Origin: a virus
Length of the DNA: 27,852 nt
Virus record (IMG/VR): IMGVR_UViG_3300011258_001289
Coordinates: 1 to 27,852 of that record
Strand: one strand, 5' to 3'
The notes under the pieces were generated by a model. That model was not told the origin of the DNA. It ran no database searches and saw nothing but the letters and a program-made list of their open reading frames with translations. Shown here piece by piece: positions 1,852 to 24,468 of this stretch (within the stretch, counting starts at the first letter, position 1; each line of letters opens with the position of its first letter). A program made the translations under genes and the position numbers.

Positions 1852-2035
1852 TTAAGCGGTGAAGCCGTTCTCGTGCGCCACCGAGCCCACCCAGTTGCCG
1901 GCGCGATCGTAGTTGATGACCCATGCGTTGGCGTCGAGCATGTTAGCGGCGTCAGCAATACGTCCCTTGGCTTCCAGAGCCTCGATTGCGTCATGGATGC
2001 GGTTCAATTCTGCCGATTTTTTCGGCTTTGGTCAT
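1852..2035 (-). pseudogene. Small gene broken by a one-base frameshift in an A6 run
   Basis: From the ATG at 2035, behind the strong site GAGGAGGGCCAGACG, the frame reads MTKAEK and then stops after 14 codons. Dropping one base from the six-T run at 2017-2022 (A6 on the coding strand) gives a clean 60-residue protein beginning MTKAEKSAELNRIHDAIEAL and ending AHENGFTA, stopping at 1852-1854. The span is 184 bases, exactly one more than 61 codons. So the gene is either a real mutant, an assembly error, or uses slippage at the run. The intact product would have a helical N-terminus and a beta C-terminus (WVINYDRAGNWVGSV). It sits between the 76-aa and 70-aa genes with normal operon spacing. Confidence 0.65.
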
Positions 2036-2044
2036 CGTCTGGCC

Positions 2045-2060
2045 CTCCTCACTCTGCCGG
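2045..2060 (-). repeat. Start-associated cassette copy on the minus strand (CCGGCAGAGTGAGGAG)
   Basis: The 16-base sequence is identical to the copy at 3745-3760 on the plus strand. In both places it encodes the last codons PAE and the stop of one gene, and supplies the GAGGAG ribosome site of the next. Shorter relatives (GAGTGAGGAG) precede the genes at 3242, 3601 and 4060. Confidence 0.85.
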
Positions 2061-2279
2061 CCTGATTGCAGCAATCTGCGCGGCGGACTGGTCCATATTC
2101 TCGATTGTCAGGCTGAACGGATCGACGCGAGACTGCTCTATTACAGCCCAAGGCAACACGCGTCGCTCTGGGCGGATGTTTGTCCGCATTTCTAAAACTA
2201 TCCCGTCTTGACGCAGCTGGCAGGTCACGCCTTCACGGCCCGCCGCCGCCTTTATCCACGACCAAATTTCCGGGTTCAT
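2049..2279 (-). CDS. First gene of leftward operon, hypothetical 76 aa
   Basis: Starts MNPEIWSWIKAAAGREGVTC and ends IRPAE. ATG at 2279 is selected because GAGGAGAGG lies just upstream; the frame is open to 2366 and that extension would look like a signal peptide, but it runs through the promoter at 2314-2342. The C-terminal codons and stop form part of a 16-base cassette, CCGGCAGAGTGAGGAG, also found on the opposite strand at 3745-3760. Probably a small soluble alpha/beta protein; no family recognised. Confidence 0.75.
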   Translation of the reverse strand: MNPEIWSWIKAAAGREGVTCQLRQDGIVLEMRTNIRPERRVLPWAVIEQSRVDPFSLTIENMDQSAAQIAAIRPAE

Positions 2280-2313
2280 TGAACCTCTCCTCGTTCTGTG
2301 TTTCTGTCCTGTA

Positions 2314-2342
2314 CATATAAACCCAATTACAAACACGATCAA
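2314..2342 (-). promoter_or_regulatory. Putative sigma70-type promoter of the leftward small-gene operon
   Basis: On the minus strand, TTGATC (2342-2337) is separated by 17 bases from TATATG (2319-2314). Each box matches the consensus at four of six positions. Initiation near 2307 would give a leader of about 27 bases that contains the GAGGAGAGG ribosome site of the first gene. No other promoter-like sequence was seen in front of the operon. Confidence 0.55.
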
Positions 2343-2383
2343 GAGGCATTGCAAAATAAAATTCAACTGCTACGTTTGGATGT

Positions 2384-2833
2384 ATGAAAATAGGTTACGG
2401 CTACAGAAAGCACACCGTGGACTTGCAGGCGGCAGGTGCAGAGCGCGTCTATATCGACACGGATAGCGCAAGGCCGCGGCGTGCAGAGATGATGCGGCGC
2501 GGCTTACGCGCGGGCGATACGCTGGTGCTGCTATATCTGCGCGACCTGGGCGGCTCGCCCGTCGCGGATACGGTCTGGCGTGGAAAAGTCGAGGCATTGG
2601 GGGTGACGATCAAAATCGTCCGCCCGGTCAACGTCCGCCCGGTTGGTCGCCCGCGAAAATTTCAGCCCACGCCAGAAGAAGACGCCGCTATCCGCGCAAT
2701 TTGGCTTGACGGGCTGGAAACGGAAAAGCGGCGGTTGCAACGAATAGCCGACTACAAGCGCCAAACCGTCGGCAAAGGCGCGCTGGTCTGGCGTTACGGC
2801 ACGCCAACAAATCCCAAACCGCCAAAAAGTTAG
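2384..2833 (+). CDS. Serine-recombinase-like protein with degenerate active site
   Basis: Encodes 149 residues. The order MKIGYGYRK, VDLQAAGAERVYID, then a RAGDTLVLLYLRDLGGS segment follows the resolvase/invertase catalytic fold. The C-terminus (GRPRKFQPTPEED then a helix pair ending VWRYGTP) resembles the recombinase helix-turn-helix tail. However, the family signature Y-x-R-V-S-T, which carries the nucleophilic serine, is replaced by YGYRKHT, and the LDRLGR arginines become LRDLGG. It should therefore bind DNA but not cut it. It is the first rightward gene opposite the leftward operon promoter, a typical place for a regulator. No clear ribosome site is seen before the ATG, so initiation may be leaderless or weak. 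A packaging-linked role is an alternative, because the terminase lies in the same transcript. Confidence 0.75.
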   Translation: MKIGYGYRKHTVDLQAAGAERVYIDTDSARPRRAEMMRRGLRAGDTLVLLYLRDLGGSPVADTVWRGKVEALGVTIKIVRPVNVRPVGRPRKFQPTPEEDAAIRAIWLDGLETEKRRLQRIADYKRQTVGKGALVWRYGTPTNPKPPKS

Positions 2834-2843
2834 GAGTTAAATA

Positions 2844-3023
2844 ATGGCTAAAGCATACGCAGAAATGAGTGTTGATGAACTGACGGGTGAATTAGAGGTT
2901 TGGTGGAATATTATCGACCAGCCGAAAGGCCCTGAGACGCCTAGCAATGGAGCGCGCAGAGGCGCAGAACGTGAAGTCGAGGCAGTGGAGGCTTGGCTTG
3001 CGCGCCGGCATATGGGTCAATAA
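2844..3023 (+). CDS. Small hypothetical protein, 59 aa
   Basis: Reads MAKAYAEMSVDELTGELEVW at the start and ends AWLARRHMGQ. ATG at 2844 follows AGGAG with an 8-base spacer, 10 bases after the recombinase-like gene. It is helical and acidic in its first half (DELTGELEVWW) with a second amphipathic helix after a Pro/Gly loop. Likely a small soluble protein; no family recognised. Its stop overlaps the start cassette TAAAGGAGCGATTGAG of the DUF551 gene. Confidence 0.75.
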   Translation: MAKAYAEMSVDELTGELEVWWNIIDQPKGPETPSNGARRGAEREVEAVEAWLARRHMGQ

Positions 3024-3037
3024 AGGAGCGATTGAGT

Positions 3038-3229
3038 ATGGCTTGGCAACCTATTGAGACAGCGCCACAAGATGGCTCCCCGGTGCTGGCATACGATCCT
3101 ACATGGTATGATGTCCCGCACCCGATGCTGTGGAATGGCGCGACATGGTGCTTATGGTTCCAGTCAGACCGGTATGACGGTTTCCGCCCCACGCATTGGA
3201 TGCCGTTGCCCGAACCACCAGCAGAGTGA
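3038..3229 (+). CDS. DUF551-like protein, 63 aa
   Basis: Carries the DUF551 pattern: WQPIETAPQDGSPVLAYD at the start, an internal W-rich strand, and THWMPLPEPP at the end. This family is widespread in phages and prophages, usually as a small protein of unknown function that is often expressed early. The ATG at 3038 follows AAAGGAG and is preferred over the further in-frame start at 2993, which lies inside the neighbouring gene. Ends PPAE-stop, the stop being embedded in the repeated cassette GCAGAGTGAGGAGTGATTG. Confidence 0.85.
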   Translation: MAWQPIETAPQDGSPVLAYDPTWYDVPHPMLWNGATWCLWFQSDRYDGFRPTHWMPLPEPPAE

Positions 3230-3241
3230 GGAGTGATTGCG

Positions 3242-3373
3242 ATGCAAGGATTTAATCTACCGGATTTCTGCCCGCTGATGGTGTTTGCCGGAATTGGCTT
3301 TCTGGCGAGCGCCATCGCTGCCGCGTTCCTGGTCTTTCATCTGGCCATGGCGGTCTGGTTTTATCTTACGTAA
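3242..3373 (+). CDS. Tiny membrane protein, 43 aa
   Basis: Begins MQGFNLPDFCPLM, followed by an almost continuous hydrophobic stretch (about residues 12-42, FAGIGFLASAIAAAFLVF and onward), which can form one long or two short membrane helices. ATG at 3242 follows GAGGAG with an 8-base spacer, TGATTGCG, identical in layout to other starts in this run. Role unknown. It lies in the small-gene block rather than the lysis region, so a holin role is not supported. Confidence 0.75.
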   Translation: MQGFNLPDFCPLMVFAGIGFLASAIAAAFLVFHLAMAVWFYLT

Positions 3374-3389
3374 AGGGGTGTGATTGAGT

Positions 3390-3590
3390 ATGCCGCATTG
3401 GACTCTCCAACAATGTCCGTCTCTGGCAAGCGTGTCAGAACAAATGTTAGAGGACGCCGAATATGCGATTATTCTGGAGATGGCGCAAACAATTGGAGAC
3501 CGCGAGAACGTTGAGTATCGGCTTGATCGTCTGGAAGCTCTCGCGTTGTTCCAGACGGAATTAAAGCACCGTGAGAAAACGACAGAGTGA
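3390..3590 (+). CDS. Small hypothetical protein, 66 aa
   Basis: Begins MPHWTLQQCPSLASVSEQML and is helical throughout, with an acidic helix (EDAEYAIILEMAQTIGD) and a second helix (EYRLDRLEALALFQTELKH) ending REKTTE. ATG at 3390 is preferred over an in-frame TTG at 3384 because AAAGGGG and the TGATTGAGT spacer match its neighbours. Probably a helical-hairpin or dimeric protein. No family recognised. Confidence 0.75.
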   Translation: MPHWTLQQCPSLASVSEQMLEDAEYAIILEMAQTIGDRENVEYRLDRLEALALFQTELKHREKTTE

Positions 3591-3600
3591 GGAGGATGCA

Positions 3601-3756
3601 GTGGCAGATCTAGAACTGGCGGAGCGACAGGCACCTATTGCGCCGGCTGCCGCCGTCCTGGAGCGACAGTTACGGATAATCTGCCATCTGATCGAGAAAC
3701 AGTCGCCATCCGCGCGGGAAAACCTGCGTGGACACTTTACGTTTCCGGCAGAGTGA
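3601..3756 (+). CDS. Small helical protein with GTG start, 51 aa
   Basis: Starts at GTG 3601, five bases after GAGGAGG; the frame is also open upstream to 3571 but that part overlaps the preceding gene without its own site. Reads ADLELAERQAPIAPAAAVLE and ends FTFPAE. A central helix (LERQLRIICHLIEKQ) follows a Pro-rich linker. The final codons and stop form the cassette CCGGCAGAGTGAGGAG, which recurs in inverted orientation at 2045-2060. Function unknown. Confidence 0.65.
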   Translation: MADLELAERQAPIAPAAAVLERQLRIICHLIEKQSPSARENLRGHFTFPAE

Positions 3757-3760
3757 GGAG
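3745..3760 (+). repeat. Start-associated cassette copy on the plus strand (CCGGCAGAGTGAGGAG)
   Basis: Identical to 2045-2060 in inverted orientation. On this strand the longer form GAGTGAGGAGTGATTG(A/C)G is repeated before several small genes (3231-3241, 3754-3768, 4042-4058), and a TAAAGG-type variant with the same TGATTGAG spacer is found at 3021 and 3371. Confidence 0.85.
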
Positions 3761-3768
3761 TGATGGAG

Positions 3769-3855
3769 GTGGTTAGCATAGACCTGATTTATCTAGCGCT
3801 GCCTGTGCTGTTTGCCTTGGGTGTGGTTCTGATCGAAATAATCAACTCACAGTAA
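3769..3855 (+). CDS. Tiny single-pass membrane peptide, 28 aa
   Basis: Residues run VVSIDLIYLALPVLFALGVV and end LIEIINSQ, one hydrophobic helix. The GTG at 3769 has an 8-base spacer to GAGGAG, the same layout as the neighbouring genes. The ATG at 3763 in the same frame would leave only two bases and is less likely. It is too short for most gene callers; the start cassette and the pure helix composition are the evidence. Function unknown. Confidence 0.55.
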   Translation: MVSIDLIYLALPVLFALGVVLIEIINSQ

Positions 3856-3866
3856 GGGGTGATTGA

Positions 3867-4052
3867 ATGCCGACCTTGGAAACATCTTGGGTCGTTGAGC
3901 AGCTAGTTGCTGCTTATCACAATGCAGATCGCGGAATAATTCGCACGCCGGGCGAACGGTCGGGCCATCGAGACGGAGTGCGAGACGCAGCTGTCAGATT
4001 GGGTGTTTATGGAGAATTCTGTAACACAATCGGCGAACAGAGTGAGGAGTGA
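3867..4052 (+). CDS. Small hypothetical protein, 61 aa
   Basis: Begins MPTLETSWVVEQLVAAYHNA and includes a segment SGHRDGVRDAAVRLGVYGEF. ATG at 3867 follows AAGGGG with the spacer TGATTGA. It ends QSEE because the cassette AGAGTGAGGAGTGA is here read in a different frame from the other genes, so the stop is the second TGA of the cassette. This suggests the cassette was joined to the coding region without respect to frame. Soluble, mixed charge; no family recognised. Confidence 0.75.
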   Translation: MPTLETSWVVEQLVAAYHNADRGIIRTPGERSGHRDGVRDAAVRLGVYGEFCNTIGEQSEE

Positions 4053-4059
4053 TTGAGTG

Positions 4060-4425
4060 ATGCGCACACCTGCACCCAAAACACTAACGCATGCAGAGGC
4101 CGCAATCTGGCGCAAAATGATAGCAGCCGAACCGCCGGCGTTACTGACAACGGCCAGCGCGCGCCAATTGCTGGCGCAATATTGCGTGCATATGGCAGCG
4201 CTTGACGTGTTAAACGAGAAAGCGCGGACGGCTATCCATGCGGATGAGTTCGAAAAGTTGGCGGTAGTGAGCAATATTCGCGCCAGAGAAGAGGCGGCAG
4301 CAATCAAAATCCTAACGTCTTTACGCCTCACAAATCAGGCGCGCGTTGACAAAAAGACGGCGGGCACGGCCGCGCGTAAATCCGTCCCCGATGCTGCGGA
4401 GCGCAAACCATGGGAAGCGGAATAA
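4060..4425 (+). CDS. terS: Terminase small subunit
   Basis: Recognises the packaging site and hands the DNA to the large subunit. The 121-residue protein has a helical N-terminus (LTHAEAAIWRKMIAAEPPAL), a mid segment with LLAQYCVHMAALDVL, and the C-terminal pattern ILTSLRLTNQARVDKKTAGT. This layout (an L-RLT-NQAR motif before a basic, disordered tail) is typical of small terminases of HK97-type phages. It sits immediately upstream of the large subunit with one small gene between. ATG 4060 (10 bases after GAGGAG) or GTG 4057 (7 bases) may start it; both are compatible. Family assignment is by pattern and position. Confidence 0.8.
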   Translation: MRTPAPKTLTHAEAAIWRKMIAAEPPALLTTASARQLLAQYCVHMAALDVLNEKARTAIHADEFEKLAVVSNIRAREEAAAIKILTSLRLTNQARVDKKTAGTAARKSVPDAAERKPWEAE

Positions 4426-4720: not shown

Positions 4721-6337
4721 ATGGCAGGCTCGGCACTTGGGAACACCTGGGAAGCTATGCGCGCGAAAAAGTCAACAAAGCAGTCAGGGCAGACATTAAC
4801 GCGCGGCGAGCGTAATTGCCTATGGATTGAGAAAAATTGCAAAGTTCCCAAGGGGCGGGACAAGGGCAAGCCGCTTATTCTGCGGCCGTTTCAACGCAAA
4901 ATAATCTTATCCATATACGACAACCCCCAAATTACGCGGACTTGCATTGTGTCCATGGGGCGCAAAAACGCCAAAACCGCGTTGGCGGCTTGCATTGCAT
5001 TGTTGCATTTGGTCGGGCCGGAGGCGGTGGCGGACACTGAACTTTACAGCGCCGCGCTATCCAAAGAGCAAGCGTCAATTACCTATAAATTCATCTGCCT
5101 TTTGCTGGATCATGCGCCGCAATTGGATAGCTACGTTGTTCGCAGGGCAACACACAAGCAGCTTGAGAACCCGCATCTACAGATCAATTTCGAAGCGCTT
5201 TCGAGTGAAAGCAAAACCAAATATGGCCTTTCCCCTTCGCTGGTCATCTTTGACGAGCTGGGCGAAGTTGAGGCGCCAACGTATCCTCTATATGAGGCGT
5301 TAGACACCGCGGCGGCGGCGGAAGAAGGTCCGCTAACAGTGGTGATCTCAACCCAAGCCGCTACAGATACCGCGTTGTTATCGACGATGATTGACAGCGC
5401 ACTTGCCGGCAATGACCCGTCGACGGTGTTGCACCTATTCACCGCGCCCGATGATTGCGACCTGTTAGACGTTGACGCCATCAAGGCGGCAAACCCTGCC
5501 TTTGGCGATTTCCAATCCGAACGCGAAACCCTGGCCAGTCTCCAAAAAGCAAAGTCAATGCCGGCGCTTGAGAGCAGCCGCCGGCGGTACATGCTCAATC
5601 AGCGAGTGCATACGGTCGGCGGATATGTGACCCCGGCAACCTGGGCACGCAATGCCGGGCCCGGTGGCCTCACATTAGAGGGCGCCCACTGTTTTGGCGG
5701 GCTGGATTTGTCCGCGGTGAACGATCTCACCGCGTTCGTTTTGGTTGGCAAGGTCAAGGGTGTTTGGGTGGTGGAATGCTGGTTCTGGCTCCCTAATATT
5801 GGCCTGGATGAGAAGTCAGAAAAAGATATGGTGCCCTATACAACGTGGCGTGATCAGGGGTTTATCCAAGCATCGCCAGGATCAACCATATCATACGCGC
5901 ATGTTGCGGAAACGCTGCGGGGCATATTTGATCGCCGCAATATCGTTGGCGTGAATTTCGATCGATGGCGCATGGCTCACTTGTTGCCGCATCTTGAGGC
6001 GGCGGGATTTTCAGAAGATGAAATAGAACGCTTCCACGAATTCGGCCAAGGGTATCAAAGCATGACCCCGGCGCTACGGGATCTGGAAGCGGAGCTGATC
6101 GAGGGGCGGCTAGCACATGGCGACAACCCGGTGCTGAGAATGTGCGCATTGAATGGCGTTATCGAAATGGACCATGCAGAAAACCGCCGGCTGACCAAAA
6201 AGATTGCACGCGGTCGAATTGACGGATTGGTTGCACTGGTTATGGCGATGGGGTTAGGAATGACCACGGCGCCCGATGATGACGGGCCGGACCTGTATCA
6301 AATGTTGGCAGATTTAGAGGCGGCGAAACATGGCTAG
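4721..6337 (+). CDS. terL: Terminase large subunit (Terminase_1 family)
   Basis: The 538-residue packaging motor: an N-terminal ATPase translocates DNA into the prohead and a C-terminal RNase H-fold nuclease cuts it. The Walker A loop is GRKNAKT (about 80-86), Walker B is LVIFDE (174-179) with catalytic Glu179. Nuclease acidic residues are visible as D329 and D335 (GLDLSAVNDL), D414 (NFDRW) and D501 (RGRIDG). Length is normal for this family. Start ATG 4721 lacks a strong ribosome site; an in-frame ATG at 4757 is a possible alternative. The portal start overlaps its last codons by 8 bases. Confidence 0.97.
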   Translation: MAGSALGNTWEAMRAKKSTKQSGQTLTRGERNCLWIEKNCKVPKGRDKGKPLILRPFQRKIILSIYDNPQITRTCIVSMGRKNAKTALAACIALLHLVGPEAVADTELYSAALSKEQASITYKFICLLLDHAPQLDSYVVRRATHKQLENPHLQINFEALSSESKTKYGLSPSLVIFDELGEVEAPTYPLYEALDTAAAAEEGPLTVVISTQAATDTALLSTMIDSALAGNDPSTVLHLFTAPDDCDLLDVDAIKAANPAFGDFQSERETLASLQKAKSMPALESSRRRYMLNQRVHTVGGYVTPATWARNAGPGGLTLEGAHCFGGLDLSAVNDLTAFVLVGKVKGVWVVECWFWLPNIGLDEKSEKDMVPYTTWRDQGFIQASPGSTISYAHVAETLRGIFDRRNIVGVNFDRWRMAHLLPHLEAAGFSEDEIERFHEFGQGYQSMTPALRDLEAELIEGRLAHGDNPVLRMCALNGVIEMDHAENRRLTKKIARGRIDGLVALVMAMGLGMTTAPDDDGPDLYQMLADLEAAKHG

Positions 6338-21087: not shown

Positions 21088-21651
21088 CTAGCCCGTATTC
21101 CCCTCGGTTTCCGCGTCTGCCTGTTTGGCGATCTGTTGCAACTCCGCCTGGATTGGGTGCCCTGCGATATGTGCTTCAAAATCAGCCGGGTTGTCGTCTT
21201 TCCATTTGAGCAACGCAAAGACGCCCTGGCGAGCGGCCGCGTGGGCGCTGTCAATTGGTGAGGAGGCGAGCACATTAACATTGATTGTTTCCCGTTTATC
21301 GCGCGAAAGCTGGACCGCAACCGACATTGCCGCCGGAATATCTGACAGCGCGGCAATGCGGATCCCGCCAACCGCTTTGCCTGCCCATCTAACCGAAGGC
21401 TCATAAAAGAGGAGAGCGCGGCGGCCAACGTATGCTTCGCCATCGCGTCCCCACGCCTGGACCAATACGCGGCGCATGCCCTTTGATGGCTTGTAAGGTC
21501 TGCCCTTGTCGCCTTCGTATCGGATAGCGACAGGCTGGTCACCTTCCGTGACAACAACCCCGGTGATTTTGATTTCCAGCGGGCCAGCGACAAGATCAAC
21601 CGCGTTCAATTGGTCGGACTTGGCAACGATGGTAGGTGCAAGGTCTTTCAT
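21088..21651 (-). CDS. Recombination-associated protein next to RecE-like exonuclease
   Basis: 187 residues from ATG 21651, preferred over 21699 because GGAG precedes it by 8 bases and it overlaps the exonuclease stop (ATGA). Starts MKDLAPTIVAKSDQLNAVDL; the middle has beta strands (LEIKITGVVVTEGDQPVAI) and a distinctive AYVGRRALLFYEPSVRWAGK followed by VGGIRIAALSDIP. Similar small proteins accompany phage exonucleases and are thought to bind single-stranded DNA or assist annealing. No RecT, Erf or Rad52-type motif was recognised, so the partner role is inferred from the operon. Confidence 0.7.
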   Translation of the reverse strand: MKDLAPTIVAKSDQLNAVDLVAGPLEIKITGVVVTEGDQPVAIRYEGDKGRPYKPSKGMRRVLVQAWGRDGEAYVGRRALLFYEPSVRWAGKAVGGIRIAALSDIPAAMSVAVQLSRDKRETINVNVLASSPIDSAHAAARQGVFALLKWKDDNPADFEAHIAGHPIQAELQQIAKQADAETEGNTG

Positions 21652-22709
21652 TTGCTCGGCTCCATACCGGCGCTGCCGCCAGTCATCCAAGCGGGGCAAT
21701 CTTCGTCATATAGCGGCTCAAGCTGGTTCATGTGTCCATACGGCTCTGAGCCGAACATTGCCCGCGTTTCGTAAAATCCAGCCACGGCCATTTCAAACGC
21801 GTTCATTGCCCTGGCCAAAAACCCCGGCGCGGTTTTCCCGTTCAGGCAATAGGCGGCCGTCTCCGGCTGGGCGTCCTGCGTCGCAAACAGATAATTTAGG
21901 TTGTCGCTATCGCTGCCGGTCAATGGTTGGCCAGTGGGATCAACCGGCGCCAATGCTTCAATCACCTGCATTGCCTTGAGGTGCATTCCCATTTGCACGC
22001 TGTAACGGTCTGCCATGTCGCGAAGAGCCCTGCGCGGCAATCCACCCTCTGCCCTGGGCATTGACGTTTTCAGCTCGACCAATCCGAACGCGCCGAACTT
22101 GTCCAAACGATCAAGCCAGCGCGTGCCGTATTCGTCCTGCCACAATACCGTGACTTCCGGCCAACCAGTTTCCAGCACTTCGGCAACACCTGCCATATTG
22201 ACAAGCGCGGCTTTGATGGCCTGGGCAATGTTTAAGGTGCCATGCGGAACAAGCACAAGCCCATTGGCGGCGATTGCCTCGCGCGCAACGTCGCCAATTC
22301 TAGCCGCCAATGCAGGGCGCTCGGCAACAATCGTCGAGATCAAATCTTCTCGCTTGCCACTCGCCTTAAGAATGTCAGGCGCAAGCTCCAAAATTTCCGC
22401 TTTGGTTTCTCTCCAAAGCGGATCTACCGCGGCGTATTCCTCCAAAAATTGTGGCAACCCCTCAATCACGTAGGTATGGACGGCACGGCCAAACGTCATA
22501 GCCGGGGTTGCCTCGCGGTCTGGCAAAATGCCGTCGACGTGGCGGGCCCAATAAAGCCGCGGGTTGCTGTTGATCAGGTTGAGGCGGCTGCAACGCATGG
22601 CAGGCACAGCCTCATATACATGAAAAGGCATGCCGAAATACACGCCAACGGGCAGCGTTTCCGGCTCCATTCCTTCAATCCATTCGCCGCAATACGGTGT
22701 TTCTCGCAT
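21648..22709 (-). CDS. RecE-like PD-(D/E)XK exonuclease
   Basis: 353 residues from ATG 22709, selected because GAGGAAATCAG precedes it; the longer open frame to 22928 runs through a promoter. The N-terminal part has the exonuclease hallmarks YEAVPAMRCSRLNLINSNPR and MTFGRAVHTYVIEG. The catalytic part is visible as WLDRLDKFGAFGLVELKTS, where the Asp of LDRLDKF and the ELK triplet fit the D...E-x-K core of the RecE/DUF3799 type. It resects double-strand ends for phage recombination. It is the first gene of the leftward operon. Confidence 0.88.
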   Translation of the reverse strand: MRETPYCGEWIEGMEPETLPVGVYFGMPFHVYEAVPAMRCSRLNLINSNPRLYWARHVDGILPDREATPAMTFGRAVHTYVIEGLPQFLEEYAAVDPLWRETKAEILELAPDILKASGKREDLISTIVAERPALAARIGDVAREAIAANGLVLVPHGTLNIAQAIKAALVNMAGVAEVLETGWPEVTVLWQDEYGTRWLDRLDKFGAFGLVELKTSMPRAEGGLPRRALRDMADRYSVQMGMHLKAMQVIEALAPVDPTGQPLTGSDSDNLNYLFATQDAQPETAAYCLNGKTAPGFLARAMNAFEMAVAGFYETRAMFGSEPYGHMNQLEPLYDEDCPAWMTGGSAGMEPSK

Positions 22710-22733
22710 CTGATTTCCTCGGTTTTGTTTCAC

Positions 22734-22774
22734 TTGACAATCGCTAGATACCGCTACAAAATCGCGGCTGTCAA
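22734..22774. promoter_or_regulatory. Overlapping divergent promoters with inverted TTGACA boxes
   Basis: TTGACA (22734-22739, plus) is 17 bases before CAAAAT (22757-22762). TGTCAA (22769-22774) is TTGACA on the minus strand, 18 bases before TATCTA (22750-22745). Each -35 box thus lies beyond the -10 box of the opposite promoter and the two transcripts cross the same 40 bases. The two perfect boxes also form an inverted repeat, a natural operator for the regulator encoded at 22800. Confidence 0.65.
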
Positions 22775-22799
22775 CGATTAAATCACAGAAAGGCGCGAT

Positions 22800-23069
22800 A
22801 TGCGACCCAACCCTATGATGGATTTCGTGGATTACGTTTGCGGCGGCACAAAGGCCAAAGCGGCGGAGTTTCTCGATATGCCTTGGTCCACTGTACGCGA
22901 TCGATACAACGGAAAGAACGGCGGGCAAATCCCCGCTGAAAAAATTCCCCGCGCGGTTTTCGTGGCGGAGAAAGAGCGGCCGCGCGGTACGTTTTCACTT
23001 CGTAACGCGTTGCCGATTACCGATGCCGAATGGCAGCAAATGAAAGGAATTAACTTTGGCGAAAACTAA
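22800..23069 (+). CDS. YdaS/Cro-like DNA-binding regulator
   Basis: 89 residues. A helix-turn-helix is seen at about 15-37, with GGTKAKAAEFLDMPWSTVRD, followed by the segment GGQIPAEKIPRAVFVAE, which resembles the I-P-A-E-R motif following the recognition helix in YdaS/Cro-type regulators. ATG 22800 has AAAGG 7 bases upstream. It is the first gene rightward from the divergent promoters, so it probably controls the switch between the two early operons. The lack of a separate CI-type repressor makes it the only clear transcription factor beside the recombinase-like protein at 2384. Confidence 0.75.
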   Translation: MRPNPMMDFVDYVCGGTKAKAAEFLDMPWSTVRDRYNGKNGGQIPAEKIPRAVFVAEKERPRGTFSLRNALPITDAEWQQMKGINFGEN

Positions 23070-24252: not shown

Positions 24253-24468
24253 GTTGCCTCTCCACCTGTGGGTATCCTGTGGATGAATTCAAAAACCAAA
24301 CGAAAACGCAGGAAAAACGTTCCGTTTTTTCTCGGTTTTGGTTGCGTTTTCGGCACCTGTTTTCCGCAAAAACAAGGGGTTACCGATACAGAATAGAATA
24401 GAATAGAAAATATAACTAACCCCCCTTACCCCCCTTCTTGCGAATGGGGGAAAAACAGTTTATCCCCA
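24087..24468. other. Putative replication origin with DnaA-box cluster
   Basis: TGTGGATAA, a perfect DnaA box, is at 24087-24095. One-mismatch boxes are GGTGGATAA (24244-24252), TGTGGATGA (24278-24286) and, in the opposite orientation, TTATCCCCA (24460-24468). An AT-rich stretch with three GAATA repeats (24391-24405) followed by AAAATATAACTAA could be the unwinding element. The 259 bases from 24253 to 24511 contain no gene. The interpretation as origin is inferred from the boxes, the AT-rich part and the position after an initiator-like gene. Confidence 0.55.
24301..24352 (+). other. Inverted repeat with nested stem in the putative origin
   Basis: CGAAAACGCA (24301-24310) pairs with TGCGTTTTCG (24343-24352); inside it AAAAACG (24313-24319) pairs with CGTTTTT (24323-24329) followed by T and C. 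The inner stem and T-run may act as a weak terminator after the DUF1376 gene; the outer arms may form an origin hairpin. Confidence 0.5.

Follow-up and report, generated by a model that had tools for sequence, protein, structure and literature searches.

Start-associated repeats have been described from several groups of phages, with no consensus on what they do, and the question raised by this locus is whether the short sequence recurring in front of its small genes reflects a ribosome-site preference or a recombination joint. That question yields testable predictions here, given the two-module build of the elements, a hybrid among the copies and stops in three frames. The window, meaning the whole stretch of DNA that was analysed, is the full IMG/VR record of 27,852 bases and encodes the gene set of an HK97-type siphophage, including the terminase large subunit (4721-6337), portal, head protease, major capsid, tape measure and a J-like tail protein, together with an exonuclease VIII-like gene (21648..22928, minus strand; phrog_412, E 1.3e-17) and an HNH nuclease gene. 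From about 2280-2384, two arms of small genes run apart, one leftward to about 728 and the other rightward to the terminase. Searches with TerL or portal returned no close relative in viral contigs, GTDB genomes or phage records, the best TerL relatives being 49-51% identical, and tblastn found no phage homologue of the small proteins L3, L4 and R1.

R1 (2384-2833) is an orphan gene that opens the right arm. By eye it resembled a degenerate serine-resolvase N-terminus; Pfam, PDB and PHROGs gave this likeness no support and the AlphaFold model was poor, so we abandoned the idea that a site-specific recombinase acts on the elements. Elsewhere in the record, a non-coding stretch ahead of 24512 holds a AGAATAGAATAGAATAG repeat and a C-rich tract (24380-24440), and the contig end (27770-27852) carries AGATCGGAAGAGCACACGTC..., an assembly artefact that we take to be Illumina TruSeq adapter sequence.

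Seven right-arm junctions between 3021 and 4060 have in common the stop/Shine-Dalgarno/spacer sequence GAGTGAGGAGTGATTGAGT, with the consensus GAGTGAGGAGTGATTGAG. In all seven (R3-R9) the stop codon overlaps the Shine-Dalgarno (SD) core, so that ribosomes can terminate and re-initiate; the spacer is close to TGATTGAGT in six of them, and the gap from stop to start at element junctions is about 8-17 nt. R3 (3009..3037; this and the other right-arm junctions lie on the plus strand) consists of an end-side GTCAATAA, the core AGGA and a start-side GCGATTGAGT, and precedes the ATG at 3038 of a DUF551-like gene. It is followed by R4 (3218..3241, CCAGCAGAGTGAGGAGTGATTGCG), by R5 (3362..3389, ...CGTAAAGGGGTGTGATTGAGT), where the spacer register is displaced by 2 nt, by R6 (3579..3600, ACGACAGAGTGAGGAGGATGCA), by R7 (3745..3768, CCGGCAGAGTGAGGAGTGATGGAG), whose register suggests that the GTG at 3769 is the real start, by R8 (3843..3866, CTCACAGTAAGGGGTGATTGA), and finally by R9 (4034..4059, CGAACAGAGTGAGGAGTGATTGAGTG), which precedes the terminase small subunit gene. 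The element thus recurs directly ahead of a start at all sites named by the first-pass annotation, which had also correctly noted a change of reading frame at the 4041 copy: ORF 3867-4052 ends at the second TGA of the R9 element, and the element is therefore not conserved for its codons.

Its longest identical form is also found once in each arm, as had been claimed. The 16-mer CCGGCAGAGTGAGGAG occurs exactly twice, at 3745-3760 (plus strand) and 2045-2060 (minus strand), and near copies with one to three mismatches lie at 3218, 3579 and 4034, giving five matches where shuffled sequences predict 0.13. The two exact copies bracket the region from which the arms diverge as a perfect 16-bp inverted repeat; if they recombined, a segment of about 1.7 kb would be inverted and the end-side halves swapped.

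The left arm has a start-side family of its own (AAAGGACCAGACGATG). Its typical form, AAAGGACCAGACG, stands before 1835 (L3, 1836..1848; all left-arm junctions are on the minus strand), with close forms before 1609 (L4, 1610..1628, GATAAAGGACCAGAGGCG) and 988 (L7, 989..1004, CTGAAAGGACCAGACAG) and a partial form before 2035. A variant, CGC(T/A)TGA, is found before 1390 (L5, 1391..1408, AATGAGGACGCTTGACG) and 1175 (L6, 1176..1200, CGCCAGAGTAAGGACGCATGAA), and L1 (2280..2298, ACAGAACGAGGAGAGGTTCA) is weakly right-like (8/12). The junction before 2035 (L2, 2036..2060) joins the right-type CCGGCAGAGTGAGGAG to the left-type GGCCAGACG. The gene downstream of it (1852-2035, minus strand) is interrupted by a frameshift where six A's follow one another (2017-2022), which may be an assembly error or real.

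When all junctions are aligned on the AGGR core, each site resolves into two half-modules that meet at the SD core. The end-side half lies where the upstream gene ends, in its last codons and stop ((A/T)-Glu-stop); the start-side half goes with the downstream gene. One end-side type, CAGAGTG (type A), is present at R4, R6, R7 and R9, which agree with one another at 8-10 of 12 positions, and it reappears in the left arm at L2 (11/12 to R7) and L6 (10/12 to R6). The start-side half TGATTGAG is found at R3, R4, R5, R7, R8 and R9 and at none of the left junctions; the end-side half therefore crosses arms and the start-side half is arm-specific. All four combinations are represented: type A with TGATTGAG (R4, R7, R9), another end side with TGATTGAG (R3, R5, R8), type A with another start side (R6, L2, L6), and neither (L3, L4, L7). 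The single cassette described in the first-pass annotation must accordingly be divided, in that the recurrence is real but belongs to two independently assorting halves, and the sites at 3021, 3371 and 3853 share only the start-side one.

The clearest hybrid is L2, a chimeric copy in which the switch from right-type CCGGCAGAGTGAGGAG to left-type GGCCAGACGATG lies inside the element. With the stop held fixed, the chance of its end-side match is about 1.5e-4, or 0.006 if GAG is also fixed, on the assumption that genes end in GAG for purine-rich SD reasons; that of its start-side match is about 2-5e-4. As the first-pass annotation had it, the element precedes unrelated genes in both arms: no paralogy was found among the genes flanking the junctions, which rules out tandem gene duplication, since the likeness of the junctions cannot then be the remnant of a duplicated gene.

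Overlap of stop and SD is common in phages, and convergent selection for stop-overlapping, extended SD sites in tightly packed small genes could in principle produce similar junctions with no DNA copying. Consistent with this, predicted pairing to the 16S tail, taken as an assumed alphaproteobacterial sequence, is stronger in R3-R9 (about -10 to -16 kcal/mol) than the late-gene mean of -7.9. However, the similarity extends beyond the stop and SD core. In a null model that kept each junction's own stop and SD 7-mer and randomised the remainder (500 randomisations), the mean pairwise similarity of R3-R9 was 10.8 against 5.8 expected (maximum 6.7 of 500), and that of the left-arm set was 7.7 against 5.9 (maximum 7.4). 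The first-pass annotation expected equally high scores at other junctions of the genome if this were only a generic ribosome-site preference; late-gene junctions do not give them (mean 4.5, with one late-right pair at 13), and the element is absent from the late genes and confined to the two small-gene arms. Nor does the spacer pair exceptionally well: when the core is held constant, 5-18% of random spacers match the pairing of TGATTGAG with the same assumed 16S tail, so SD strength alone is not the explanation. The end-side identity, moreover, sits in upstream coding DNA. The element very likely has a role in translation, but that role does not explain the sequence identity of the junctions, and we consider generic ribosome sites an unlikely account of them. 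Each of the three frames meets a stop within 22 nt of the start at three of the nine right junctions (R5, R8 and R9) and at none of 25 late ones, and 0.5% of random 22-mers are likewise closed in every frame; these stops may have been selected or may be a by-product of a TGA-rich repeat.

The reading we prefer, at roughly even odds (about 0.5), is that translation-coupling junctions were multiplied by local DNA copying at SD cores inside the genome, and not by independent optimisation. Each element would close one small gene and open the next through its overlapping stop and SD core, and translation coupling would be what selection keeps. The halves would be joined at AGGR, with ..CAGAG-TGA on the end side and TGATTGAG (right) or CCAGACG or CGCNTGA (left) on the start side, and recombination or copying at the shared core would mix them. 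An exonuclease VIII-type recombination system may be the copying agent, as the gene in this genome is a possible source of short-homology recombination. We infer this copying mechanism from the sequence of one genome. Speaking against it are the weaker significance of the L2 end side when GAG is fixed, and the start-side halves, which stay within their arms, whereas free shuffling predicts that they would cross. It is possible, though somewhat doubtful, that the SD core is the point of exchange, with genes moved or copied from core to core carrying a start-side half in front and an end-side half behind. In that case every junction would be a hybrid that is still translatable and blocks read-through in several frames.

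A candidate donor of the end-side half is the DUF551-like gene (3038..3229, plus strand), which ends THWMPLPEPPAE*, as some homologues in other phages do. Those of Salmonella phages seszw and ZBSTP8 end PEPPAE* and that of Stenotrophomonas phage S72 ends PEPPSE*, so PAE* is natural in DUF551; PAE* also terminates the unrelated genes before R7 and L2. These endings suggest that the 3' end of the DUF551 gene donated the half, and they are only suggestive because the tails vary (PPAE, PPSE, PPQEAK, PPENGNG and others).

The first-pass annotation went further and proposed portable recombination joints, retained because a phage can take up small genes through them in a form ready for translation. 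Unrelated flanking genes, hybrid halves and the presence of the element in both arms are in keeping with such a role, three-frame stops would end any incoming gene, and the authors who described the cluster K repeats proposed these short repeats as possible recombination targets (PMC3203893). If this were so, gene content might be expected to break at the junctions, and the right halves of nine cluster K phages, with their start-associated sequences (SAS), provide a comparison. A simple comparison of flanks gave breaks at 0.46 of SAS against 0.35 elsewhere (permutation p 0.004), an excess we reject as confounded by the longer gaps before SAS genes and by the counting of related genomes as independent. 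When breaks were measured from the end of the upstream gene and orthologous junctions were grouped, 0.66 of SAS and 0.61 of non-SAS junction families were broken in the nine phages (p = 0.36), and at gaps of at least 50 bp the values were 0.69 and 0.73; with simple gene calls and DNA-level mappings, this is evidence against a strong effect and not proof of none. The cluster K control also illustrates how a naive breakpoint test can mislead, in that significance was reached only before gap and orthology were controlled.

Searches for kin likewise argue against portability, having given no genuine match to the exact element among viral contigs and no convincing one in phages. An exact 17-mer had a single match in viral contigs, inside an ORF; the 14-mer GAGGAGTGATTGAG matched 107 stretches there, none of those listed with two copies, and 16 of the 80 examined lay ahead of an ORF start, against 12% by chance; and blastn of the 30-mer consensus in phages gave a best E-value of 2. 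We therefore regard portable joints as rather unlikely. What survives of the proposal is its DNA-level part, copying joined at the SD core, to which the 2035 hybrid and the assorting halves point; gene swapping between phages through these junctions is unproven. An operator through which a translational regulator (RegA-like or a small RNA) coordinated expression across the arms would account for the restriction of the element to the small-gene arms and for the conservation of bases at and after the SD. It is very unlikely, however, given that the halves assort independently, that the R5 spacer is out of register and that the two arms have different start-side halves.

Its start-associated junctions place this phage among genomes with repeats at their gene starts. 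The cluster K mycobacteriophages, to which the first-pass annotation aptly compared it, carry SAS, a repeated asymmetric sequence of unknown function that occupies the ribosome-site position before unrelated non-structural genes (PMC3203893; surveyed in PMC12699233), and the present element recurs in the same position before unrelated genes; it is absent from structural genes, but one copy stands ahead of the terminase small subunit gene. The cluster K consensus, GGGATAGGAGCCC, differs from both the right (GAGTGAGGAGTGATTGAG) and the left (AAAGGACCAGACG) forms seen here. SAS lie mostly in intergenic gaps over 50 bp and in essentially one orientation, and 17-bp imperfect inverted repeats (ESAS) lie upstream of about half of them (PMC3203893). 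In contrast, gaps here are short and the stop lies inside the element, there are two arm-specific families with assorting halves, and an exact 16-mer stands ahead of genes on both strands; no local ESAS-type pairs are found upstream, where the DNA is coding.

Microbacterium phages of clusters EF, EC, EG and EI have SAS-like and intergenic genome-specific repeats at or near ribosome-site positions (PMC7302621). The EF consensus, GGGAAAGGACCCC, is different, and the motifs of EC and EG are placed 14-30 bp ahead of starts and not over the stop (PMC7302621). Citrobacter myophage Mordin has a 26-bp start-associated repeat before eight small genes of one arm, with a different sequence and host and a single reported family (PMC4611695). 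A screen of about 265 viral and prophage loci yielded two further start-associated families. One (L116; IMGVR_UViG_3300037851_001277, 239950-271763) comprises 24 copies of GGAGGTGRCGRCGATG, which precede genes of either strand, all fall in an interval of about 32 kb (240-272 kb) in a viral contig of 273 kb, and are unrelated to the present element in sequence and genome; the other (L033) is a small family of three copies of AACTCAAGGAGAAGAACACATG. From these comparisons we conclude that the start-associated junctions of this phage are a real set, specific to its genome, that belongs to a known kind but differs in sequence from earlier cases, and that their two-half anatomy, which points to DNA copying at the SD core within the genome, is not described in the published accounts of the cluster K, Microbacterium and Mordin repeats.
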